From the IMG/VR virus record IMGVR_UViG_3300032177_000054, positions 1-29,154 of that record: 29,154 nt of DNA. One strand, 5' to 3'. The translations under genes were made by a program, and so were the position numbers. Under the pieces are notes generated by a model. That model ran no database searches and had not been told where the DNA came from. It was given only the letters and a program-made list of their open reading frames with translations. Within the stretch, counting starts at the first letter, position 1; each line of letters begins with the position of its first letter. Positions 3,299-19,661 of this stretch are shown here, piece after piece. Source of the DNA: a virus.

Positions 3299-4531
3299 AT
3301 GGACATACAGATAGACTTATCCTCATGGCAGCATTTTGCACTACAACTAATCCTTAGATTACGATTTTCAGTAATAAGCGCCGGACGACAAAGCGGGAAA
3401 ACCACATTACTAGTTTTTGTTATAGTATACATGGCCTTAAAAAAAGCAAATAGCATTAATTGGTGGGTGGCTCCAACCTATGCCCCAACAAAAATCGCCT
3501 TTAGACGTACGCTTAAATTCCTAATTAAAAACAAAATACCACATACCGTGAATCGATCGGAATTGAGAATTGAGCTACAAAATGGATCGACAATTGAGTT
3601 TAAATCGGGCGATAGAGAAGAAGGCCTAAGGGGTGAGTCTGTAAACTTTTTAGTTATAGACGAAATGGGACTTTTGAAAAGAATGGCTTGGGAAGAGGCT
3701 CTGCGGGGAACGATAACGGCTACCGAGGCAAAGTGTGTGTTTATCGGCACACCAAAAGGTAAAAATCTATTTTACGAATTATTTGCCAAAGGGCAGGATG
3801 TGCAAGAAAAGGAGTGGACTTCGATACAAGTATCTAGTAAAGAGTCTCCATACTTCCCCGATAACGAATGGGAAGAAGTCAAAAAAATGCCTGCCAGGAT
3901 ATTCGATCAGGAATATTGGGCGCATTTCATAGAGGACGGAGGCGAGGTTTTTAGGAGGATAACTGAATGCGTTCAGGGGTCATTGCAAGACTACAATAGT
4001 CATAAACAATATTTCGCAGGAGTAGACCTTGCTAAACATAGCGACTATACAGTTATATGTATTTTGGATAATAACGGTCATCTGGTGTATTTCGATCGGT
4101 TTAACGATATTGCTTGGACCATACAGAAAGCGAGGATAATAGACGCCTGCAATAAATATAATGCATATGCCCTTATAGATAGCACCGGTCTGGGTGATCC
4201 CATCCTTGACGACTTAACCATGCATATGCGGTGTGAGGGCTATAAATTTGATAATACATCTAAACGACATCTAATCGAAACACTATCCATGTCGATTGAG
4301 CGCACAGATATCACATTTCCAGAGATACCAGAGCTAATAAACGAGCTAAACATTTTTACATTTGACCAGTCGCCCTCTGGGCTGATACGCTATAACGCGC
4401 CGGACGGACTTCACGACGACATAGTAATATCACTCTCACTAGCTAATTTTATATACAAGAGACAATCTGGGCATAGCGTAGACGATTTTACAGATATTGG
4501 GAAACGGGTTGTTGAAGATTTTTATGCTTGA
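3299..4531 (+). CDS. terL: terminase large subunit
   Basis: This 410-aa packaging motor protein has a complete N-terminal ATPase: Walker A AGRQSGKTT (28-36), Walker B LVIDE with catalytic Glu (118-122) and the coupling motif GTPKG (150-154). The C-terminal RNase-H-like nuclease has its acidic residues at D243 (FAGVDLAKHSDYT), D294 (LIDSTGLGD) and D373/D374 (GLHDDIVIS). It docks on the portal, translocates DNA into the prohead and cuts concatemers. It belongs to the Terminase_6-type group and is slightly shorter than many members (420-550 aa) but has no missing motif. The TGA stop is embedded in the TTGACA of the next promoter. Confidence 0.95.
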   Translation: MDIQIDLSSWQHFALQLILRLRFSVISAGRQSGKTTLLVFVIVYMALKKANSINWWVAPTYAPTKIAFRRTLKFLIKNKIPHTVNRSELRIELQNGSTIEFKSGDREEGLRGESVNFLVIDEMGLLKRMAWEEALRGTITATEAKCVFIGTPKGKNLFYELFAKGQDVQEKEWTSIQVSSKESPYFPDNEWEEVKKMPARIFDQEYWAHFIEDGGEVFRRITECVQGSLQDYNSHKQYFAGVDLAKHSDYTVICILDNNGHLVYFDRFNDIAWTIQKARIIDACNKYNAYALIDSTGLGDPILDDLTMHMRCEGYKFDNTSKRHLIETLSMSIERTDITFPEIPELINELNIFTFDQSPSGLIRYNAPDGLHDDIVISLSLANFIYKRQSGHSVDDFTDIGKRVVEDFYA

Positions 4532-4556
4532 CAATCTATCATGTTGTAGATACATT
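4528..4556 (+). promoter_or_regulatory. promoter of the accessory glycan cassette
   Basis: TTGACA (4528-4533) overlaps the terminase stop codon; after exactly 17 bp comes TACATT (4551-4556). The transcript would start near 4563 and carry a short leader with AAGGA before the ATG at 4592. The spacer contains the imperfect dyad ATCTA-N8-TAGAT (4534-4551), a possible repressor site. This gives the cassette a promoter independent of the structural operon. Confidence 0.6.
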
Positions 4557-4591: not shown

Positions 4592-5470
4592 ATGAAATAT
4601 TTGTTATATCGGCTTCAATGGTTTCTCGCACAATACATTCAATTCGACCACCCCATACACGTAGACATAGAGATTAATAATAACTGCAATCAAAAATGTA
4701 TGTCGTGTTGGCACTCTGATGCAAGCAAACGTAAGTTTAAAATTGAAACAATGCCGTACGAAGATGTAATGTGTAACATCGACTATTTTAAAGTCCTAGG
4801 GTGTAAGAGCATTAAATTTAATCTACGTGGCGAGCCTTTTTTAAACGAGCAACTAGAGCAGTATTTAAGATACGCTAAAAAGCTTGGTTATGTCGATGTG
4901 ATGCTAAATACAAACCTTACGTGCAACAAACAAAAGCTAATTAAATGCCTGCCTTACATCGACACGTTGATAGTTAGCCTGGATTCATTCGAGTCTAAGA
5001 CGTACAATAAACTACATGGTACCGACAACGACTACATTAAATTATTATACAACCTTAGAATACTTAGCGAGTTAAGCGACCTAGGAAAGCTCAAAACACG
5101 AATAATACTAAACTACCATGTAAACAAATACAATGCACTTGAAAGTCATCCTAAAACATATATGGGATTTAAAATTATCTATCGATATACACAGAATAGA
5201 GAAGGACAGAATATTTCTATTAAGCTCAATGACAAAAGAAAGAAAAAATGCCCACACATGATGAGACGTGTTACCGTTATGGCAAACGGAAAGATGTATC
5301 CATGTTGTGTGTGCTACAACGAGCCTAATGACATTAGAGTCGATGATATATACTCCGATGGCAAAAACGGAAAATATGAATCCCACTTTCGTAATGCTCT
5401 GATAGATACATATAGCTTTAACATGCAAGAGTCGTGCAAGAACTGCACTTCACAGGATGTATACAAATGA
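4592..5470 (+). CDS. radical SAM/SPASM-like enzyme
   Basis: This 292-aa protein has a radical SAM CxxxCxxC motif at C32, C36 and C39 (NNNCNQKCMSCW), which ligates the 4Fe-4S cluster that cleaves SAM, and a GGE-like motif (LRGEPFLNEQL). The barrel strands LMLNTNLTC-like and DTLIVSLDSF follow. Its C-terminus has the cysteine pattern of a SPASM/twitch auxiliary-cluster domain: C220, then C238/C239/C241, then C282/C285. Related enzymes modify peptides or sugars. Since the next genes handle nucleotide sugars, a sugar epimerase, dehydratase or deoxygenase role is inferred, but peptide modification cannot be excluded. It overlaps the next gene by 4 nt (ATGA). Confidence 0.88.
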   Translation: MKYLLYRLQWFLAQYIQFDHPIHVDIEINNNCNQKCMSCWHSDASKRKFKIETMPYEDVMCNIDYFKVLGCKSIKFNLRGEPFLNEQLEQYLRYAKKLGYVDVMLNTNLTCNKQKLIKCLPYIDTLIVSLDSFESKTYNKLHGTDNDYIKLLYNLRILSELSDLGKLKTRIILNYHVNKYNALESHPKTYMGFKIIYRYTQNREGQNISIKLNDKRKKKCPHMMRRVTVMANGKMYPCCVCYNEPNDIRVDDIYSDGKNGKYESHFRNALIDTYSFNMQESCKNCTSQDVYK

Positions 5471-6780
5471 GAAAAGATGAGAACGTCGGAATTATAGTTA
5501 CTGCTAGAGTGCGGTCGAACAGGATACGGGAAAAGGTACTTCAAAAGATAGGGAATAGATTGGCGATAGAGATATTGCTAGATCACATAGTTAATCCTAA
5601 ATACCCTGTAATTCTGGCCATACCTACTAACGAGGCAGACGACATCCTGGCAGATATAGCAGAAGAAAAAGGCGTACTGTGTTTTAGGGGGAATGACGAT
5701 AGCCCTTTACATAGAATCGTAGATTGTGCGGACGCTTACGACTTTGACCATGTAGTGCGAGTAACAGCGGACGACATTCTCATTGACTTGCAGATAATGC
5801 TTAACCAGATACGCTTTCATCTGGCGGGAACACAAGACTATACGTATTGCAGACGATTGCCAGAGGGGTGTGGCGTAGAAGTAATTAAAACAGATGTTTT
5901 AAGACAGACCGTAAAAGATGTTGGGAATAAGCCCATTGAATTCATAAGCTATTATATCAAAGATAAATACGTAACAAAAGAATACTACCCGCACTTAGAT
6001 TTTCAGCATGCTTATAGATGCACAATGGATTACCCAGAGGACGTAACAATGTTACGCCTTCTATTCGCCTGTATGGATAGCCCTGGAACGCTGGACATTA
6101 TAAACTTCCTCGAGAAACACTCGTATTTTTGCAAAATAAATCAACTGCCAATTGTTACAATTTACACGTGCAACTATAATACATCCAAATACATTGTTGA
6201 CTGTATGAACTCAGTAGTAGCGCAAGCGTTCGACGAATTTGAGTACATTGTGCTTGACGACTGCTCGAGTGACGATAGTATGAACATAATTACGGAATGG
6301 TATACTAATCAGAATCAATCTGTACAAAAAAAAGTGAGGATATTGAGAAATGATACAAACATTGGGCTTTCTGCTTCTTCCAATAAAATGCTTAATGTGG
6401 CTCGCGGTCGCTACATTATTCGTGTTGATAGTGACGATACCGTATTACCTTCTATGCTTAGTCGTATGGTTGAGGAAGTCAAAAATAATGATTGTCAGGC
6501 CATCCTTTCTGGCTTTAATTCTGTGAAAGAAAACGGAGACATTATTTCTTATGAGAGAGAAAACCCCTTCCATCCTGGGTGCTCGCTAATATCAAGATGG
6601 GCTGCAAACGAATTGAAATATAGAGAAGACTTGGAGTTTATGGAAGGACAGGAATTTTTTAAACGATTCAACGAAGCGTACAAAGTGAGATTTATAAAAG
6701 ATGCGTTATGGAATTATCGTAGACGCCCTGGACAGAAGACACAGGACGCAAGGCACCCAAATAATACTGAAAAGGACTAA
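5467..6780 (+). CDS. SpsF-like cytidylyltransferase fused to GT2 glycosyltransferase
   Basis: This is a 437-aa two-domain protein, starting at the ATGA overlap at 5467 rather than at an in-frame ATG further up. Residues 1 to about 220 match SpsF/CMP-sugar synthetase-type nucleotidyltransferases: GIIVTARVRSNRIREKVL (equivalent to IxARxxSxRLPGKVL), PTNEADDILADIAEEKGV, CFRGNDDSPLHR, and RVTADDILID. Residues 229 to about 430 are a GT-A family 2 glycosyltransferase: TIYTCNYNTSKYI, LDDCSSDDS, and RVDSDD with the metal-binding DxD at D321-D323. The fusion suggests one protein both activates a sugar (probably with CMP) and transfers a sugar. The usual PG in LPGK is replaced by RE. Substrates are unknown. 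Confidence 0.88.
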   Translation: MRKDENVGIIVTARVRSNRIREKVLQKIGNRLAIEILLDHIVNPKYPVILAIPTNEADDILADIAEEKGVLCFRGNDDSPLHRIVDCADAYDFDHVVRVTADDILIDLQIMLNQIRFHLAGTQDYTYCRRLPEGCGVEVIKTDVLRQTVKDVGNKPIEFISYYIKDKYVTKEYYPHLDFQHAYRCTMDYPEDVTMLRLLFACMDSPGTLDIINFLEKHSYFCKINQLPIVTIYTCNYNTSKYIVDCMNSVVAQAFDEFEYIVLDDCSSDDSMNIITEWYTNQNQSVQKKVRILRNDTNIGLSASSNKMLNVARGRYIIRVDSDDTVLPSMLSRMVEEVKNNDCQAILSGFNSVKENGDIISYERENPFHPGCSLISRWAANELKYREDLEFMEGQEFFKRFNEAYKVRFIKDALWNYRRRPGQKTQDARHPNNTEKD

Positions 6781-6784
6781 CAAA

Positions 6785-7648
6785 ATGAAAAAGAAATTAC
6801 TGGTTACCGGCGGGAACGGGTTCATTGGTTCGCACTACGTGGACCTAGTAAAAGACAAATATGATGTTACGGTTTATGATCTCCCAGAAAACGACATTTT
6901 AGAATACGAAAAACTATGCCTATACATTAGCCGATGTGATATTGTTGTGCACTTTGCCGCGATTGCCGACCTATACGAAACAGCCAAGGACTACGAAAAA
7001 AACTTTAACGTAAATGTTACCGCAACTACTTGTATCGGCCGACTATGCCAAAGGATGAACAAAAAGCTCGTATATATTTCCACTTGCTGTGCATACGGAA
7101 ATAGCATGGACAAGGTCGAGAAAGAATTTTATACCAATCCCATGACAGACGAGCCATACGCCTGTAGCAAAGTCGCAGCCGAGTACATGCTTAGAGGTAT
7201 ACATGATCTTAAATACGCAATACTCAGGATAGGGACCGCTTATGGACCACGACAAAGGGAGACGCTTTTTACATATCGCGCTATTGACTATATCAAAAAA
7301 GGTAAAACAATCACAGTACATGGTGATGGCAAGCAAGACAGAAACCTTATTTATATTGCTGATCTCGTTGAAGGTATTAAGCTGGCTACTGACAAAATAA
7401 GCAGCATACAAGGCGAGATTATAAATCTATGCGGGAAGGAGCGAATATCGGCACTTGATACGATAGCCCACGCTGAACGGGTAACAGGGATTAAGGCTAA
7501 AGTTAAGCATGGGAAAGACCGTCAAGGCCAGATACGCCACGAAAACATATCAATTAAAAAAGCAAAAGAATTGCTAGGATGGGAGCCTAAAGCATCATTT
7601 AAAAAAGGCATGGACTTATCTCACAAAAATGATGAGAGGTTTAATTGA
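6785..7648 (+). CDS. NAD-dependent epimerase/dehydratase (extended SDR)
   Basis: This 287-aa protein has the Rossmann glycine motif TGGNGFIG (8-15), FAAIADL after the fourth strand, YISTCCAYG with the catalytic Ser/Thr, and the active-site Y-x3-K at Y125/K129 (YACSKVAAEY). The later RIGTAYGPRQ and GDGKQDRNLIYIADL stretches are typical of UDP-glucose 4-epimerase/dTDP-glucose dehydratase relatives. It probably epimerises or oxidises a nucleotide sugar. I chose ATG 6785, 4 nt after the previous stop, because the upstream part of the open frame lies inside the preceding gene. At 287 aa it is slightly shorter than usual (about 310-340). Confidence 0.9.
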   Translation: MKKKLLVTGGNGFIGSHYVDLVKDKYDVTVYDLPENDILEYEKLCLYISRCDIVVHFAAIADLYETAKDYEKNFNVNVTATTCIGRLCQRMNKKLVYISTCCAYGNSMDKVEKEFYTNPMTDEPYACSKVAAEYMLRGIHDLKYAILRIGTAYGPRQRETLFTYRAIDYIKKGKTITVHGDGKQDRNLIYIADLVEGIKLATDKISSIQGEIINLCGKERISALDTIAHAERVTGIKAKVKHGKDRQGQIRHENISIKKAKELLGWEPKASFKKGMDLSHKNDERFN

Positions 7649-7652
7649 TAAT

Positions 7653-7931
7653 ATGAAATATAATATCTTAATAGCGTTTTATCTATCAACATTTATTGCA
7701 CTGTTTGCGTTCGTTGGCTGTGAACTAAGCGAGTACAAAGAAAAGACTGGCGACGCTTATGCAAGCCGATACTATCGCTATGTAATACGCACAGAGATTA
7801 CGGTATATGAGTGCGACAATGTCTACGTGTCATCACAGTCAGAAAATAGTTTGTACTGTGAATGTTATCGCGATGATGGCACAAAAATCATTGTCAAGGG
7901 CAGCCACGCTATAGAGAGATATAACAGATAA
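7653..7931 (+). CDS. putative lipoprotein
   Basis: This 92-aa protein begins MKYNILIAFYLSTFIALFA, a signal sequence ending in a lipobox-like AFVGC, so Cys would be lipidated at about residue 23. The mature part is small, polar, with three further cysteines (YECDN, YCECYRD), beta-rich, and could sit on an envelope surface. I prefer ATG 7653, which follows GAGG at 7634-7637, over an in-frame ATG at 7629 that overlaps the epimerase. Small phage lipoproteins often block superinfection by binding receptors; that is inference here. Confidence 0.6.
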   Translation: MKYNILIAFYLSTFIALFAFVGCELSEYKEKTGDAYASRYYRYVIRTEITVYECDNVYVSSQSENSLYCECYRDDGTKIIVKGSHAIERYNR

Positions 7932-8236
7932 TGCAGACTTTATTTGCTTGCACACAAGAGGATTTTTTAAAACAGATTTATAGGATATCGTCCCAGAATT
8001 TAGTAAAACTGCTATATGAGATATACGAGCTGAAGCACGACAGAGGGCAGTTTTGGGATGAAAGCACAATGATGGATATTGAGCGAAAAGAAACAAAGAT
8101 AAATGCAGAGCTAATTCGCAGAGGGTATCTTGACAAAAAGGGATACGAAGAGTACTTTAGAATGATGAGAAAGCTAGGGAATGGTAAAAAGAAAGTGTTT
8201 ACGCATGGCGTTCCTGTTATAGGTAAAACAGAATGA
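7931..8236 (+). CDS. hypothetical helical protein in glycan cassette
   Basis: This 101-aa charged protein is mainly alpha-helical (DFLKQIYRISSQNLVKLLY, DESTMMDIERKETKINAELI) with a basic C-terminus ending GVPVIGKTE. No signal peptide, membrane segment or known motif was found. It starts at a TAATG overlap with the lipoprotein gene and ends in an ATGA overlap with the aldolase gene, so it is co-translated with them. It may be a small partner of one of these proteins; function unknown. Confidence 0.6.
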   Translation: MQTLFACTQEDFLKQIYRISSQNLVKLLYEIYELKHDRGQFWDESTMMDIERKETKINAELIRRGYLDKKGYEEYFRMMRKLGNGKKKVFTHGVPVIGKTE

Positions 8237-8937
8237 TAATAGCAGGTGACTGTTTATATACTGACTATCTTGATGAAGACAGAATAATACATAACGCCGA
8301 AGAATTAAAAGGCGTTGTTGATTATTTTAGATGCAAGATTTTTGGTGGCGGCACTAGGCCAGATAGATATATTGCAGGAATAGGAATAAATGGGATTGAA
8401 ACGCTATCATATATCGACAAAGAAATTATCCCATGCGGAACAGAGATACAAACATTATCTCAATACAAAATGTGTGATACATTATCTTATCACTGGATAG
8501 GCGCAAGGAATAGTCAAAACTACGGTTTTTTAAATGAGATATCATGCAGTAAAAAAGACGTTATGATTAAGCGTGGAGCCTCAATAACTATAGACGAGAC
8601 CATTGGATTATTTGATATTATGAAGCATATCAACAACAAAGAAGTGTATATTATAGAGCGTGGGATAAATACTTTTGATAGACTTGACGACTCGCGCTGG
8701 TCACCTGACCTTAAGGGAGTTATACGCATTAAGCACGAACGGCCAGATATATTTGATAGACTTATTATAGACTGCTCTCATAGCGTAGGACGCAAAGAAT
8801 ATGTAGCAGATACATACAAAGCGTTCAAGGCTATTGGCATAAAGCATTTTATGTTTGAGTGCACGATAGATGGATTCAGCAAGACTGATTATAGGCACAT
8901 GTTGAGCGCTAAAGAATTAAAGGAGTTACTGAAATGA
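8233..8937 (+). CDS. DAHP-synthase-like PEP aldolase with altered acceptor site
   Basis: This 234-aa protein follows the class I DAHP synthase (AroG/AroF type) barrel: IIAGDC at 2-7, WIGARNSQN (88-96), VMIKRG (110-115), YIIERGINTF (139-148), IIDCSHSVGRK (178-188), FMFECTID (206-213). The metal ligands are present (C7, H183, E209, D219), as are residues that hold PEP in the family (A91-R92, K113, R143, H183). However, the K-P-R-[ST] motif that binds erythrose 4-phosphate is replaced by GGGTRPD (38-44), GPCS is GDCL, and ERGIRTF is ERGINTF. It probably condenses PEP, or a close analogue, with a different aldehyde to make a ulosonic acid. There is no ACT or chorismate-mutase regulatory domain. 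An inactive homologue is the alternative. Confidence 0.8.
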   Translation: MIIAGDCLYTDYLDEDRIIHNAEELKGVVDYFRCKIFGGGTRPDRYIAGIGINGIETLSYIDKEIIPCGTEIQTLSQYKMCDTLSYHWIGARNSQNYGFLNEISCSKKDVMIKRGASITIDETIGLFDIMKHINNKEVYIIERGINTFDRLDDSRWSPDLKGVIRIKHERPDIFDRLIIDCSHSVGRKEYVADTYKAFKAIGIKHFMFECTIDGFSKTDYRHMLSAKELKELLK

Positions 8938-10238
8938 TTAGACTAGAAAATTGCCCGATTTGTGACACTGACGACTGGAAGAAGTTAGACTATCTCAGGG
9001 ACCTTGAAAGGTGGTACGACAATGACTACAGGGAAGAGGGCGAGCAGGTAGGGTTTAAAATATGCAAACATTGCGGTTTTGTAACGTATGACTACGTAGA
9101 AGTAGATAGGCTTCAAAAGTTGTATACGCAACTTAGACCGATGGTTCGGGCTGAAAATGTTGTCACGCAGCGCAGAAAGAATTTATATCACAACGAGATG
9201 ATATTTAACAAACTTGACTCACATTTTATGGATCGCAGAAAAAATAATTTGAGATGCCTCGACGTGGGATGTGCAACGGGAGAATTTCTGGACCTGTTAA
9301 AGTCATATAATATTTTCAACGAATACTATGGTACGGAATGGTCAAAGGGATTTGTCGGATATGCCAAGAACGAATTTGGATTTAAAATTACAGAAGAAAT
9401 AGATACATCTATCAAATACGACTTTATATCATACTATCACGTACTAGAGCATATCCAAAGCCCAGACAAAGAACTAGCGAAGATCAGAAACATTTTGAAT
9501 GACGACGGATTGCTATACATTGCAGTACCAACATGGTTTGTTGATATCGAAGAGCCGTCTGGTATGTCTTGCTTGGACTTTGAAGAGTATTTCCACCTTA
9601 ATCACGTTAATGTATTTAGTGAGATGTCTTTTTTAAATTTAATGCATAAATGCGGATTCGAAATAATCAAAACAGATAAAAAAATGTATGGGTATGCAGT
9701 TCTATGCAAAAAGACCGATGCAACATATAATGTTGTGATTGAATCATACGAAGAGAAAGTGTCGATGCTCGAGATAATCAAAACGGCAATGGACTTTGCC
9801 ATAAAGAATGACTTTGTTAATGCTATAAAAACATTCCCTAAATATCCTGAAGCGTATTGTTATCTAAGCGTTAATAAGGAAAACCAGAAAAGCCTTAAGG
9901 TTCAAGAGCAGTTGCTCGAAGGAGGCCTAAAGCACAGTCCGCTGAACAAAAAATTAAAAATCCAATTGGCTAAACTATATATACAGTGGGACGAAAATAC
10001 CGGAGACAATCGGTTTTATTCCAACAATATTAAAAAATCAGAACGGCTATGGAACGAATTGATGAAAGATTGCATTGCACTAGAGGAGCCACAGTACTAC
10101 CTAGGCATAATAAATGGCAACTATAAGGGCGAATACAAAAAAGCGATTGAGTGTTTTAAAGACGTTATGGAGGCGAATCCATTAAGATATGGCGAGATAT
10201 TAAACTTAATAGGGTACTATTCCAAGTTTTTGTCTTGA
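8934..10238 (+). CDS. zinc-ribbon SAM methyltransferase with TPR-like tail
   Basis: This is a 434-aa protein in three parts. Residues 1-50 form a zinc ribbon (C7-x2-C10, C44-x2-C47) of the kind preceding sugar C-methyltransferases (Methyltransf_13 type). Residues about 100-255 are a class I SAM methyltransferase: motif I LDVGCATGEF (109 onward), YYHVLEH (around H169-H173), and LLYIAVPTWF. The classical C-terminal Methyltransf_14 domain is not evident. Instead, residues about 270-434 are helical and TPR-like (EPQYYLGIINGNYKGEYKKAIECFKDVMEANP), perhaps for protein or glycan-complex binding. It probably methylates a nucleotide sugar or glycan. Its TGA overlaps the next TTGACA promoter. Confidence 0.85.
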   Translation: MIRLENCPICDTDDWKKLDYLRDLERWYDNDYREEGEQVGFKICKHCGFVTYDYVEVDRLQKLYTQLRPMVRAENVVTQRRKNLYHNEMIFNKLDSHFMDRRKNNLRCLDVGCATGEFLDLLKSYNIFNEYYGTEWSKGFVGYAKNEFGFKITEEIDTSIKYDFISYYHVLEHIQSPDKELAKIRNILNDDGLLYIAVPTWFVDIEEPSGMSCLDFEEYFHLNHVNVFSEMSFLNLMHKCGFEIIKTDKKMYGYAVLCKKTDATYNVVIESYEEKVSMLEIIKTAMDFAIKNDFVNAIKTFPKYPEAYCYLSVNKENQKSLKVQEQLLEGGLKHSPLNKKLKIQLAKLYIQWDENTGDNRFYSNNIKKSERLWNELMKDCIALEEPQYYLGIINGNYKGEYKKAIECFKDVMEANPLRYGEILNLIGYYSKFLS

Positions 10239-10263
10239 CAAATAAATCAGTATGTATTATTTT
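10235..10263 (+). promoter_or_regulatory. promoter of the head/tail operon
   Basis: TTGACA (10235-10240) overlaps the TGA stop of the methyltransferase gene, as at 4528. TATTTT at 10258-10263 lies 17 bp away; TATTAT at 10255-10260 is a better box but with a 14-bp spacer. The leader to the TTG at 10314 is AT-rich with no T-run hairpin. This promoter would let the structural genes be expressed separately from the cassette. Confidence 0.5.
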
Positions 10264-10313: not shown

Positions 10314-12632
10314 TTGAGACTAGGAAGTTTAGAACTAAAAAGATACAAAGCTCCTATTGTTGAATCAATGCCCGCTAGGCAAGGGGCTGAAACTTCTTAC
10401 GCTGACTCGACTTATTATGATAAGTATTCGTTAAAACCATATAATCCCGACTCGCTCTATCAAAAAAACTCTGGGTATGCAATACACGACCAGATGAGAG
10501 AGGATGACCAGATATCATCTGTGCTTGGGCTAAAGAAACTTATCACACTTAATGCTGACTATGATATCGAATGCGAGGATGATGATGTACGCAACTTTCT
10601 ATTTGATTGTTTCGATAAATATATTGATGGAACATTTAGGTCAAAGCTATACGAGATACTGTCGTGTATGGATTATGGCTTTAGCATCACAGAAAAAATA
10701 GCGTCAGTAATAGAAACAAAAGACGGGAACAGGATTGTATTTAACAAACTAAAGACACGCGCCCCGCACACGTTCGAAATACACACAGATGACTTTGGCA
10801 ATACTACCGAGATAATGCAGCATACCGGCAAAAAAGGCGACATATCACTAGACCCAAAAAAATTTATACTCTATAGCTATAATTCTGAATTTGATAATCC
10901 TTACGGAAAGACACTTTTTAACAAAGGTGTTTATCGCGCTTGGTGGTCAAAGGATGCTATTATTAAATTCTGGAATATGTACCTTGAACGATTTGGAATG
11001 CCGCTAACGGTAGGCACGATACCTAAGTCAGCCTCCACAGAGGACAAGGATAGATTTAAAACAGCCTTAGGATCAATACAATCGCGTACCGCACTCACTG
11101 TCCCTGAAGGATTTCTAGTAGACCTTAAAAAGGCTAGTGAAACGCCTGGGGAATTCGAAAAAGCAATTGATAAATATAATACGATGATGGCACGCTCAAT
11201 GCTTGTACCTGACCTACTTGGGTTCAGTGGGAGCGAGACTGGCGGCGGGTCGTTTGCTCTAGGTAAAGAGCAGTTTAACATCTTTTATACAGGCATTGAA
11301 TACGATAGACAGAATTTAGCAAATATCATCCAGCGAGAATTAGTTAATCCACTTGTATCGTGGAATTTTGGATCTAAGGTTGAGGCTTACTTTTGTTGGA
11401 AACAGGTTGATAGCGACAAGAAGCTAAACGACATGAAGCTTTGGATTGAAGCCGTTAAGACTGGCAAAGTGCCTGTTAAAGGCGATCACGTAAATTGGTT
11501 CCTGTCTGGAGTGGGCGCACCGGAAATAGATCAAGACGAACTAGACATTATCGACGATCAAAAAGACGCTATGAGAGAAAATCTTTCCGGTGTAGTTGGT
11601 GCAAATAATGCACAGGCTCAACCTGAAGGCGAAGCGCAAGACAAAACACAAGAAACGATAGAAGAAAACAAAGAACAAATACAAGAAAAAGAAGAGCCAG
11701 AGAAATCAGATGATAGCCAAGCCGAAAAGCAAATGTGCGAATGTGGGCATGAACATACCTATCAAGAGATAAACGACATAAGCCTTGACTCGCTTTCTCA
11801 ATACGAAAAGAAAGCTGATTTCTCAAAAATCATAAAAGAAACCGACAATATTGAAGCTAAATACAAAGAGCTTCTAGGAAACATATTTAAGACATCGATA
11901 AATGCCCTAGTTGACGAGATAAGAACCAGAAAAATAATAGAGAAAAAAAGAATCGACTCAATTAATAAGCTCAACCTTAAATATCAACCACAGATAAAAA
12001 AGATAGTTAAGGATATGATGAGCGAGTCCGTTGTGTTGGGCGAGACTACCGCGCCGATACCAAATAAGTACAAAAAGTACGACCTGGTTGATGTTACGTC
12101 ACAGCTTAACGACGATGATATAGCAACGTGGATTGATAACTACGCTTTTTATGTATCTGACATGGAGGCAGGATTTATACTAGGAAAAGTAAAGCCTATA
12201 CTTATGTCGGCGATACAGAAGGGCTTGGGAACGGCCGAAACAGTTAAGCTAATCAACGACGCTCTCATAGGATACGATATTAAAACTACAGAGACCGGCG
12301 GTAGTGCTCGCATAGATATTATAGTTAGGACAAACGTAAACAAGGCCTACAATCAGGCACTCGTAAAAGACTTTGCTCGAATACAAGAATACATACAAGC
12401 TTATCAGATCAGCGCGATAATGGATAAACGGACAAGCGCAACCTGCCAAGCATTAAATCACAAAATAATTAAAGCCAACCAACTTAGTTATTATACTCCG
12501 CCCTTCCACTTTCGATGCCGAACAACGCTAGTGCCAATATTCATAGACGAGGAACCGGTTGACTGGAATAGTCCCGAAGCGCAGCTTCCCGCGACAGATC
12601 AAGCAGAAGGAGGGTTTTTAGAGCTTAAATGA
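10314..12632 (+). CDS. portal protein (DUF935, Mu gp29-like) fused to MuF head-morphogenesis domain
   Basis: This 772-aa fusion has a DUF935 portal at residues 1 to about 420 (MREDDQISSVLGLKKLI early; PDLLGFSGSETGGGSFALGKEQF and LVNPLVSWNFG late). A low-complexity Glu/Gln/Lys linker (about 430-480) follows, with a Cys/His knot CECGHEH at C475-H481. The MuF (gp30/SPP1 gp7-like) domain ends the protein: RTNVNKAYNQAL (672 onward), DKRTSATCQALN (704 onward), FHFRCRTTLVP (731 onward). In Mu these are separate proteins. The portal is the DNA channel at the head vertex, and MuF is a minor head protein. The start is TTG with no clear ribosome site and an in-frame stop just upstream; the first ATG is codon 19. 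Confidence 0.9.
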   Translation: MRLGSLELKRYKAPIVESMPARQGAETSYADSTYYDKYSLKPYNPDSLYQKNSGYAIHDQMREDDQISSVLGLKKLITLNADYDIECEDDDVRNFLFDCFDKYIDGTFRSKLYEILSCMDYGFSITEKIASVIETKDGNRIVFNKLKTRAPHTFEIHTDDFGNTTEIMQHTGKKGDISLDPKKFILYSYNSEFDNPYGKTLFNKGVYRAWWSKDAIIKFWNMYLERFGMPLTVGTIPKSASTEDKDRFKTALGSIQSRTALTVPEGFLVDLKKASETPGEFEKAIDKYNTMMARSMLVPDLLGFSGSETGGGSFALGKEQFNIFYTGIEYDRQNLANIIQRELVNPLVSWNFGSKVEAYFCWKQVDSDKKLNDMKLWIEAVKTGKVPVKGDHVNWFLSGVGAPEIDQDELDIIDDQKDAMRENLSGVVGANNAQAQPEGEAQDKTQETIEENKEQIQEKEEPEKSDDSQAEKQMCECGHEHTYQEINDISLDSLSQYEKKADFSKIIKETDNIEAKYKELLGNIFKTSINALVDEIRTRKIIEKKRIDSINKLNLKYQPQIKKIVKDMMSESVVLGETTAPIPNKYKKYDLVDVTSQLNDDDIATWIDNYAFYVSDMEAGFILGKVKPILMSAIQKGLGTAETVKLINDALIGYDIKTTETGGSARIDIIVRTNVNKAYNQALVKDFARIQEYIQAYQISAIMDKRTSATCQALNHKIIKANQLSYYTPPFHFRCRTTLVPIFIDEEPVDWNSPEAQLPATDQAEGGFLELK

Positions 12633-17437: not shown

Positions 17438-17444
17438 AGGTTTT

Positions 17445-18470
17445 ATGCTTACTGAAAAAGAAGTACACGATCAGTCTGTTAGGGCGTTCGAGCATTGGAA
17501 AACGATTTGGGATGAGAATACCAAGGCCAATGGCGAGTTATTAAAAAAGATTAAAACAAGCCAAAAACATTTATTAAACCTAGGCTTTGGCAAAAAACTT
17601 TTATGTGTTGCTTGTGGTGCAAGCCTAGAAACAAAAATTGATATTGTTAAAAAATACAAAACTGACGCGCTTGATATTGCTTGCGTAGATAAAGCACTTC
17701 CAATACTTATCGAACATGGGCTACACCCTAAATATGTATTTCTTGCCGACGCCGGAGTGTCCTACGAAAAGTACTGTGAAAAATATATAGGCCAGACAGA
17801 AGACATGGTTCTCATTTCTAATGTTCAGGCCAACCCTAAATGGTCGCACAACTGGAAGGGTAAAGTTGTTTTTTATGTAAATAAAGATAACATCGGAAGC
17901 GAGGCGATATATTCACCCATGTCTGGATGTGTAGAAATGATACCGGCATCAAGTAACGTCGGGAATAGCGTTATTGTGTTTAGTACACAAATACTAGGAT
18001 ATGACGAGTACCTTATGCTAGGGTATGACTTTGGATTTGGAATAGATACTCATTACTACGCATTCGAGGATAACGATAAAAGATATTGGATGAAACATGC
18101 ACAGCTTATAGATTATAGCGGAAATATTTGTTACTCATCGCAAAACTTAATATTTAGCAGCAAGTGGTTGGATGATTTTAATAGCACGATGGTTAAATCA
18201 AAAGGAATTAAGCTGCATAACTGCTCAGGATGCGGAGTGTCTGGAGTCCATCCGGCTAACCTAGAAAAGAAAATAAAGAATCTTAAATTTAGAAAATTAA
18301 CCGACGATGAAAAACTTAAGATACTAAATTCACGTATAGAAACAATATCTTTGACTGCACAGGATGGCGCTCAGGCCTTACAGCAAGCTCTTGAAAGCCA
18401 TAATGTCATAGGTATTAAATTGGACTACGTACCACATGAGGTTAACACATGGCTAAACTCAGGTATATAG
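17445..18470 (+). CDS. Maf/DUF115-family glycosyltransferase-like protein
   Basis: This 341-aa protein starts at ATG 17445 after AGAGG (17436-17440). It carries the DUF115 (MAF_flag10/MptE-like) core: a nucleotide-binding-type loop VACGASLE (55-62), ALPILIEHGLHPKYVFLADAG, LISNVQANP, and the strongly conserved SSNVGNSVIVFSTQILGYDEYLMLGYDFGF (from about 169). Maf proteins in flagellated bacteria transfer nonulosonic acids such as pseudaminic acid onto flagellin; other relatives are hydroxymethylpterin kinases. Position in the tail operon, between terminator and tube, points to glycosylation of a tail protein. It partners in this reading with the aldolase and cytidylyltransferase of the 4592-10238 cassette. 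Confidence 0.85.
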   Translation: MLTEKEVHDQSVRAFEHWKTIWDENTKANGELLKKIKTSQKHLLNLGFGKKLLCVACGASLETKIDIVKKYKTDALDIACVDKALPILIEHGLHPKYVFLADAGVSYEKYCEKYIGQTEDMVLISNVQANPKWSHNWKGKVVFYVNKDNIGSEAIYSPMSGCVEMIPASSNVGNSVIVFSTQILGYDEYLMLGYDFGFGIDTHYYAFEDNDKRYWMKHAQLIDYSGNICYSSQNLIFSSKWLDDFNSTMVKSKGIKLHNCSGCGVSGVHPANLEKKIKNLKFRKLTDDEKLKILNSRIETISLTAQDGAQALQQALESHNVIGIKLDYVPHEVNTWLNSGI

Positions 18471-18638: not shown

Positions 18639-19661
18639 ATGACTATAGGAAACAATACCCCATTTTTTGGATTCGACAGTGCGGTTGGCGTTGCAAAGGA
18701 AACTACTTTCGGTACTTTTGTAACGGCCACGACTTTTATAGAATTTAACAGTGAAGGCTTTAAACAAGAGCGCGATTCTAAAACTCTTGAATCAATCAAT
18801 GCTTCACGCGATCCCAAAAAGCGAGTAACATTTAACGAGAATATTTCAGGATCAATTGAGGCTGAGCTTAATCTTGCAAGTGACGGTATCATCAATATAC
18901 TTAAACAGGGCATGGGCGGGACATGTTCAAGCGTAGTTACAAGCGCGGGAGTTAGCTACACGCATACTCTTTATTCTGGAGACATGGAAAACAATAAGCC
19001 AACTTCAACCGGATCGGACATGAAGTCGCTTAGTTTTCAGGTGCGTAAAGGTAGTACGCATGTATGGTGTTACGCGGGCATGAGGGCTAACACTTTATCT
19101 TTTAAAGCGGAATCCGGCGGTCCTGTAGTTTTTAGTTCTGAATTGATCGGGCAAACATGTAGTATAACAAGCACAATACCAGCGATTAGCGTTACAGATG
19201 TTAACCCATGTACTTTTGTTGGCGTAACCGTACAAACCGGAGCAACCACGACATCACTGGCTACAGAATATTTTAAGAGCTTTGAGCTGACCATCAACAA
19301 TAACCTAGATGGTGAGCAAAGGGTGTTGGGATCGCGAAACGTAGTGTGTTTGCCACCGAAAAGACGTGAAACAAAGCTAAAATTTACACAGATATTTGAT
19401 ACGATAACGGCTTATAATAGATTTCTAGCCGAAACAATTACCGCCATTAAAATATCTATTACGGGGCCGACTATAGCAAGCTCCAGCCTTCCACATCAGC
19501 TTGACATTACACTACCTAGGTGTTATTTTAAATCTAATATGCCGACAGTTGGGGGACCAGATCCAATTATGTTGGAAATGGAATGTGACGTGCTTTATGA
19601 CTCTGCTTTGGGTAGTGCTGTAAAAATGGAAGTAATAAACGGCACCGCTGCATACGCATAA
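18639..19661 (+). CDS. tail tube protein
   Basis: This 340-aa protein is beta-rich with a starting segment typical of phage tube proteins: NTPFFGFDSAVGVAKETTFGTF...FIEFNSEGFKQERDSKTLESINASRDP. Later segments include GSIEAELNLASDGI and FKSFELTINNNLDGEQRVLGSRN. The layout fits a duplicated tube domain (Phage_tube_2 group), which polymerises into a hollow tube guided by the tape measure. The absence of any sheath gene indicates a non-contractile tail. GAGG precedes the ATG. This protein is a candidate target for the upstream Maf-like enzyme. Confidence 0.8.
   Translation: MTIGNNTPFFGFDSAVGVAKETTFGTFVTATTFIEFNSEGFKQERDSKTLESINASRDPKKRVTFNENISGSIEAELNLASDGIINILKQGMGGTCSSVVTSAGVSYTHTLYSGDMENNKPTSTGSDMKSLSFQVRKGSTHVWCYAGMRANTLSFKAESGGPVVFSSELIGQTCSITSTIPAISVTDVNPCTFVGVTVQTGATTTSLATEYFKSFELTINNNLDGEQRVLGSRNVVCLPPKRRETKLKFTQIFDTITAYNRFLAETITAIKISITGPTIASSSLPHQLDITLPRCYFKSNMPTVGGPDPIMLEMECDVLYDSALGSAVKMEVINGTAAYA

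Follow-up and report, generated by a model that had tools for sequence, protein, structure and literature searches.

A glycan gene block and a Maf-like gene next to the tail-tube gene suggest that a clade of uncultured tailed phages makes a sugar acid for the decoration of its virions

Maf proteins are reported to transfer nonulosonates activated with cytidine monophosphate (CMP) to flagellin in the cytoplasm (PMC4065374, PMC13317340); the latter paper relates acceptor choice in Maf-1 to a C-terminal TPR domain and describes methyltransferases accompanying the Maf clusters of Clostridium. Phage-encoded glycosylation of particle proteins is known from mycobacteriophages (Freeman et al. 2023), with glycans on capsid and tail-tube subunits (as cited in PMC12619734) and on capsids (as cited in PMC12691614). 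A whole virus record of 29,154 nt (IMG/VR IMGVR_UViG_3300032177_000054, 38.7% G+C, referred to as the window) has been analyzed here, which carries a seven-gene glycan block at 4592-10238 and, downstream, a Maf-like gene at 17439-18470. As in the flagellar nonulosonate systems of Aeromonas caviae (Maf1), Campylobacter and Clostridium, genes for a CMP-ulosonate (putative in the phage) and a Maf-fold transferase accompany a gene whose structural protein forms a tube. The phage system differs from them in having the central Maf domain alone, a tail-tube neighbor, a synthase that is mostly related to 3-deoxy-D-arabino-heptulosonate 7-phosphate synthase (DAHPS) and a block without aminotransferase, acyltransferase and hydrolase. 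Unlike the mycobacteriophage system, it includes genes for sugar-acid synthesis and for an enzyme of the Maf fold, and its acceptor is a candidate. Virion glycosylation is thus known, and the data suggest that the chemistry of flagellar glycosylation is the new aspect of it. In a search of open-licence papers, no phage Maf or phage ulosonate system was found described.

The features discussed are the following:

4528..4556, + strand, promoter-like site before the block, TTGACA-N17-TACATT (sequence pattern)
4592..5470, + strand, radical SAM/SPASM protein, 292 amino acids, CxxxCxxC motif (Pfam)
5467..6780, + strand, SpsF-like cytidylyltransferase fused to a GT2 glycosyltransferase (SpsF-GT2), 437 amino acids (Pfam, NCBIfam, relatives)
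6785..7648, + strand, SDR nucleotide-sugar epimerase/dehydratase, 287 amino acids (Pfam, NCBIfam)
7653..7931, + strand, small lipoprotein-like protein, 92 amino acids, one hydrophobic segment (sequence)
7931..8236, + strand, small protein without family match, 101 amino acids (relatives)
8233..8937, + strand, DAHPS-superfamily phosphoenolpyruvate (PEP) aldolase, 234 amino acids, proposed ulosonic acid synthase, GGGTRPD in place of KPRTSP (Pfam, alignment)
8934..10238, + strand, class I methyltransferase, 434 amino acids, CxxC pairs near the N terminus, C-terminal part weakly TPR-like (Pfam)
10235..10263, + strand, promoter-like site before the portal gene, also in relatives, TTGACA-N17-TATTTT (sequence pattern)
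17439..18470, + strand, Maf-like (PF01973) glycosyltransferase catalytic domain, 343 amino acids, proposed ulosonyltransferase (Pfam, NCBIfam, model, fold search)
18639..19661, + strand, major tail (tail-tube) protein, candidate acceptor (model, fold search)

It is probable that the block and the Maf-like gene work as one split system, by which a sialic-acid-like (3-deoxy-2-ulosonic) sugar is produced in CMP-activated form and added to a protein of the virion. The catalytic steps, sugar and acceptor proposed here are read from gene content, linkage, folds, the rule of one synthase per record and clade-wide inheritance. The DAHPS-like aldolase would condense PEP with an aldose, filling the job that NeuB has in some relatives, and the SpsF domain (N-terminal part of 5467-6780) would join the acid to CMP. 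The SDR protein, the radical SAM enzyme, the methyltransferase and the GT2 domain may prepare, modify or extend the sugar, which the Maf-like enzyme would move from CMP onto serine or threonine of a protein in the virion; the product of the tail-tube gene directly downstream is the likeliest candidate.

The seven open reading frames (ORFs) lie on the + strand between terL (3299-4531) and the portal gene (10314-12632), with junctions of 4, 1, 4 and 4 nt overlaps and two 4-nt gaps, as an earlier note on this DNA had described them. The gene list of that note holds for the block, and the linked partner at 17439-18470 was missing from it. Its enzyme labels are each backed by a Pfam match: Radical_SAM (3.8e-08), with SPASM slightly below the cut-off (5.5e-04); CTP_transf_3 (PF02348, the CMP-sugar cytidylyltransferase family, 1e-14, above the cut-off) and Glycos_transf_2 (1.8e-25) on one chain; Epimerase (1.5e-38) for the SDR protein, which reached 80 bits against a cut-off of 475 with the NCBIfam LegB model; DAHP_synth_1 (PF00793, 1.1e-19, 70.8 bits against a cut-off of 25.5) for the aldolase; and Methyltransf_23 (6.5e-22). 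The zinc ribbon also claimed for the methyltransferase is visible as a CxxC...CxxC sequence pattern, and no zinc-ribbon model reached its cut-off. The window portal is of the Mu type (PF06074), the capsid protein belongs to phrog_1005 and the tail genes are located downstream.

The 17439-18470 protein matched PF01973 (E 5.3e-16, 59.3 bits against a cut-off of 34.6) and, weakly, the NCBIfam flagellin modification family PseD (35.8 bits against a cut-off of 670). An AlphaFold2 model built from 38 sequences (pLDDT 94.5, pTM 0.90) had Magnetospirillum Maf (5mu5) as top PDB match (Foldseek 1.9e-12, Z 23.0, 247 residues, root-mean-square deviation 3.1), followed by the archaeal pterin kinase HPPK (Z 16.9, 204 residues), the cell-division protein SteA (Z 11.3) and thiamin pyrophosphokinase (Z 10.1). 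Sialyltransferases that use CMP-sialic acid came after those (Cst-I, Z 10.0; ST8SiaIII, Z 9.9; Cst-II, Z 9.7). A full Maf protein has about 600 residues with N- and C-terminal parts, whereas the 343 residues of the phage protein aligned to positions 238-528 of the 632-residue 5mu5. The protein is named Maf-like and not Maf because it consists of the central domain only and its PseD score is far below the cut-off. Sixteen BFVD entries matched the fold at E<=0.001 and several of them bear the name MptE-like, so viral genes of this fold are already known, under a pterin-kinase name.

In the window the Maf-like gene directly precedes the 18639-19661 gene. The model of the protein encoded by the latter (pLDDT 82.9) showed a tail-tube fold, with matches to P74-26 (3.6e-19), SH-Ab15497 (3.8e-19) and T5 pb6, and the PHROG label of minor tail protein was overruled by this fold search. 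Both genes were adjacent in all 46 loci showing both, with gaps of -116 to +494 nt. These are 46 of 52 Maf-like loci, a number that includes repeat views of some records; two of the remainder end inside the Maf-like gene and four are of the podovirus type described below. When the loci of the Maf scan were considered alone, the tube gene adjoined the Maf-like gene in 36 of 38 and the other two were truncated.

Relatives were reached by profile scans of viral contigs only (80 portal, 38 Maf-like and 31 SpsF-GT2 loci; 138 distinct contigs, cited where needed by our L and G labels), since scans with the single terL, aldolase and capsid proteins gave nothing. Exactly one PEP-dependent synthase was found in each of the 21 records having SpsF-GT2 and portal, DAHPS-like in 15 and NeuB in 6, and never both. 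The NeuB calls rest on PF03102 for L024, L025, L106/L138 and L112/L175, three of these four also on TIGR03569/TIGR03586, on PF03102 for L132 as well, and on an in-house profile alone for L139, where the NeuB-like ORF is the only block gene between terL and portal. The window has PF00793 and no match to the NeuB family (PF03102). The exchange of both synthases amounts to four changes on the portal tree of the 21 records.

The phage aldolases share with DAHP synthases the PF00793 match, the conserved C, H, E and D (C7, H183, E209 and D219, invariant or nearly so across 17 phage proteins) and aligned K and R positions of the PEP site; canonical DAHPS enzymes are the closest solved relatives of the window protein. 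They differ from them in the KPRTSP motif, which is replaced by GGT-P or RAGTYP-like sequences in 16 of the 17 aligned proteins (L143 retains its K and R) and is present in the canonical DAHPS proteins of L010 and L011, and in giving way to NeuB in some relatives. Because this motif, which in DAHPS binds the acceptor aldehyde and its phosphate, has been replaced, the acceptor is expected to differ from erythrose 4-phosphate. The aldolase matches in named phage or plasmid records were set aside as apparently ordinary DAHPS, both of those read as DNA keeping KPRTSP, and the GGGTRPD motif pattern, which gave eight stretches, was dropped as none had a homologue of a window gene. In L112/L175 (G026; L175 468-2016, L174 18590-19471), NeuB is grouped with an SDR gene and a cytidylyltransferase weakly matching PseF (32.8 bits), away from SpsF-GT2 and the methyltransferase, so the ulosonate genes of this phage are split.

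The SpsE/SpsF pair belongs to the spore-coat polysaccharide genes and also joins a NeuB-type synthase with an SpsF-type cytidylyltransferase, and the window SpsF part and radical SAM protein weakly match the two halves of spiro-SPASM (TIGR04321). The phages differ from both by the fusion of SpsF to GT2, by a separate radical SAM gene and by scores far below the NCBIfam cut-offs.

The block core order (radical SAM, SpsF-GT2, optional SDR, small protein, synthase, methyltransferase) recurs among relatives. The two nearest by portal, L016 and L017, carry all of these but the SDR gene, with a DAHPS-like synthase and proteins 41-58% identical to those of the window (31% for the small protein), and have the block before terS-terL and a terL-portal separation of only 114 nt. 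The earlier note had proposed to look for the block between terL and portal in related phages; it is kept in the clade, usually before terL instead. Positions in the 21 records, read from gene maps and with the divergent terminases of 10 loci checked, were before terL in 18, between terL and portal in two (L120 and the window itself) and behind the tail genes in one (L129); the terminase candidate of L178 matched only families without assigned function, and terL of L143 and L103 was recognized by an in-house profile alone. The block is therefore syntenic but has several locations, the terL-portal interval among them. The clade terminases belong to several families, and exchange of terminases may account for the shifts in position. 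Terminases of dissimilar PHROG families stand beside related portals in L025 (8437-10029), L148 (10436-11848) and L176 (16606-17934), which suggests that such exchange has been repeated in the clade.

Co-occurrence was counted in 42 of the 138 contigs, of about 20 kb or more (L164, with a GT2-level match only, was omitted). The Maf-like gene was present in 22 and SpsF-GT2 (E<=1e-30) in 20 of them; 17 had both, five Maf-like only, three SpsF-GT2 only and 17 neither, two weak GT2-level matches (G007, G010) not being counted. Records that came from the Maf or SpsF scans are necessarily positive; among the 19 found via portal alone, two had both genes, 17 neither and none just one. Of the Maf-like-only records, G027 ends inside the block beside the DAHPS-like and methyltransferase genes, G029 starts inside the methyltransferase gene, and G022 shows, ahead of terL, genes for a methyltransferase, a PF02348 cytidylyltransferase and a SPASM protein; the DNA of G020 begins 231 nt upstream of terL and that of G021 626 nt upstream of the Maf-like gene, and neither reaches the block region. 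The SpsF-only records G036 and G037 end in portal or capsid genes, ahead of the Maf position, and G040 ends about 4.1 kb past the aldolase, where the Maf-like gene starts in its kin.

A quick portal tree of 106 records, with support from the Shimodaira-Hasegawa-like approximate likelihood ratio test (SH-aLRT) only, placed 22 block carriers, 11 Maf-like-only records and five short fragments in one group of 38 (SH-aLRT 99). Neither the block nor the Maf-like gene was seen in the other 68; of all 106 rows, 65 say little, being too short or without a recognized tube gene, and eight have tube and portal without a Maf-like gene. In 13 complete records, the Spearman correlation of pairwise identity with that of the portal was 0.79 for SpsF-GT2, 0.78 for the Maf-like protein, 0.76 for the methyltransferase and 0.61 for the radical SAM protein, compared to 0.80-0.88 among portal, capsid and tube. 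The block defines the lineage and is old in it, if a little less tightly inherited than the structural genes. The earlier note had taken it for a self-contained, moron-like accessory module, a view that would be weakened by close relatives always carrying it, with uniform divergence and no separate transcription; by this standard the block behaves as core. A self-contained glycan module it is, with a recurring core order and movable with respect to terL and portal. The accessory part of that view is rejected because of the co-occurrence, the single clade of carriers in the portal tree and the identities that track the portal: co-occurrence counts, gene maps and tree all show the block present in close relatives, and its G+C content (0.381) is near that of the rest of the window (0.388).

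The SDR and lipoprotein-like genes are the only members of the block that behave as accessory. SDR was found in 10 of the 21 records and the lipoprotein-like gene (7653-7931) in none of those examined besides the window; the latter is possibly a separate gene of the superinfection-exclusion type. Neither the 92- nor the 101-residue protein had a family match in Pfam or NCBIfam. A small protein without family, of two sequence types, lies between SpsF-GT2/SDR and the synthase in 18 of the 21 records (examples are window 7931-8236, L016 6002-6271 and L025 5041-5382), and it may be a partner subunit.

In a podovirus-type lineage (L150-L162), SpsF and GT2 are separate genes, accompanied by a DAHPS-like gene and, in several records reaching that far, by radical SAM and methyltransferase genes upstream. 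A PF01973 gene was found about 4.1-4.4 kb downstream in the four records that are long enough. L152 has a phrog_156 portal and showed no counterpart of the tail-tube gene seen in the first clade. The meeting of the same kinds of enzymes in dissimilar virions supports a function common to both. With somewhat less than even chances, both the clade and this lineage encode CMP-ulosonic acid synthesis and a minimal Maf-type transferase acting on the tail tube or another virion protein, in most of them the synthase would be a DAHP synthase turned to a new use, with a remodeled acceptor site and exchangeable for NeuB, so the sugar may be an undescribed one.

Several observations weigh against a split system for virion decoration. 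Of the genes for pseudaminic or legionaminic acid synthesis, the window block offers for the 4,6-dehydratase only the SDR gene with its LegB score far below the cut-off, and no aminotransferase, N-acyltransferase or UDP-hydrolase gene was recognized in it with Pfam, NCBIfam or PHROG. No name can therefore be given to the sugar, and the aldose has to come from the host. The radical SAM step has no assigned role in the proposed pathway, and GT2 enzymes are not usually users of CMP sugars. The Maf-like gene is 7 kb from the block and its product, being the central domain alone, leaves acceptor choice unexplained. L032 and L130, inside the clade, have no block upstream of the portal in the available sequence; in L129, which is close to them, it follows the tail genes. 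Tail tubes encoded beside Maf-like genes are richer in serine and threonine (0.215, n=40) than others (0.176, n=6), but capsid proteins shift likewise (0.175, n=37, against 0.138, n=5) and phylogeny confounds both comparisons, so this richness was dropped as support.

The function that the module would have in altering the host surface polysaccharide, by seroconversion or superinfection exclusion and with the Maf-like gene as a separate matter, is considered unlikely. Surface-glycan clusters often contain GT2, SDR and SpsF-type genes, most weak GT2 relatives are classed in PHROG as moron/host-takeover, and the window, alone among the records, has a lipoprotein-like gene in the block. However, the block goes together with the Maf-like gene and shares the inheritance of the virion genes, searches of the block with Pfam, NCBIfam and PHROG recognized neither a flippase nor a GtrA/GtrC or polymerase gene, and a transmembrane-like segment is limited to the lipoprotein-like protein (19-residue hydropathy maxima of 0.26-1.36 in the other cassette proteins). 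Both host-surface change and virion glycosylation had been offered in the earlier note, and the Maf-like partner beside the tail-tube gene favors virion glycosylation at the expense of the other. That the fused GT2 domain, rather than the Maf-like enzyme, adds the sugar to the virion, and that the block product need not be a CMP-ulosonate, is a still less probable explanation: the fusion does place activation and transfer on one chain, and capsid and tail-tube glycosylation encoded by mycobacteriophages is cited in PMC12619734, yet a NeuB- or DAHPS-type PEP synthase accompanies the fusion in 21 of 21 records and the CMP-sialyltransferase-like fold that was found is that of the Maf-like protein.

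Glycosylation of host flagellin by the Maf-like enzyme, changing motility or excluding other phages, would agree with the characterized Maf proteins, which act on flagellin according to PMC4065374. It is nevertheless very improbable, as the gene is fixed beside the tail-tube gene among virion genes and the outer Maf parts are missing, including the C-terminal TPR domain to which acceptor choice of Maf-1 is ascribed in PMC13317340. Hardly any weight is given to the DAHPS-like gene as a helper of aromatic amino acid synthesis in a block of ordinary auxiliary metabolism; membership of PF00793 and the canonical DAHPS enzymes as closest solved relatives speak for it, against the KPRTSP motif missing in 16 of 17 proteins, NeuB swapped in for it in 6 of 21 records and the sugar-cassette setting. 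Equally remote is a pterin diphosphokinase (MptE) function of the Maf-like protein, suggested by the Pfam name of PF01973, by HPPK as second fold match and by the viral look-alikes named MptE-like in BFVD; Maf is the higher match (Z 23.0 vs 16.9; 247 vs 204 residues) and the linked genes are for sugar, not folate.

If virion decoration by the split system is true, phages of this clade can make a sialic-acid-like sugar and also have a glycosyltransferase of the flagellin type, both for their own particles, and flagellar glycosylation would be linked to phage tail assembly, both decorating tube subunits. A new branch of the DAHPS family and a compact protein-ulosonylation system would be defined, viral MptE-like pterin kinases would gain a testable function, and a tail with a sugar acid on it could be affected in its assembly, stability, adsorption or recognition.

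The TTGACA hexamers that the earlier note had placed at each border of the block do overlap both preceding stop codons (4528 and 10235), and both sites have a 17-nt spacer and a second hexamer with four of six matches. Promoter-like sites are not enriched in the region overall (33 found against 32.7 expected), and among relatives only the exact TTGACA sites before portal and radical SAM genes stand out. The exact hexamer was found before portal in 10 of 31 clade records (for example L016, L017, L134, L136 and L140) and within 200 nt before the radical SAM gene in 6 of 20 records, window included, compared to none of 22 before the methyltransferase gene, none of 18 before terL and none of 33 before mcp. 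The 10235 site is probably the promoter of the portal operon and not a block border, because it recurs before portal and not before those other genes in relatives. No terminator-like site was listed in the spacer after the methyltransferase gene.

A single bacterial-genome scan with the SpsF-GT2 profile gave four GT2-level loci and no counterpart of the fusion, and revealed neither host nor source. The CxxxCxxC motif is present in 19 of 20 radical SAM proteins of records with SpsF-GT2, the exception (L139) being truncated at its 5' end. In the NeuB-type block of L138 (G024), a second radical SAM protein (8891-9979) is encoded between the first and SpsF-GT2. The iterated radical SAM profile also matched portal-near ORFs (45-203 bits), sometimes in tandem pairs, in phages outside the clade (L033, L038, L064, L066, L077-L079, L082 and L084, found with the iterated profile alone).

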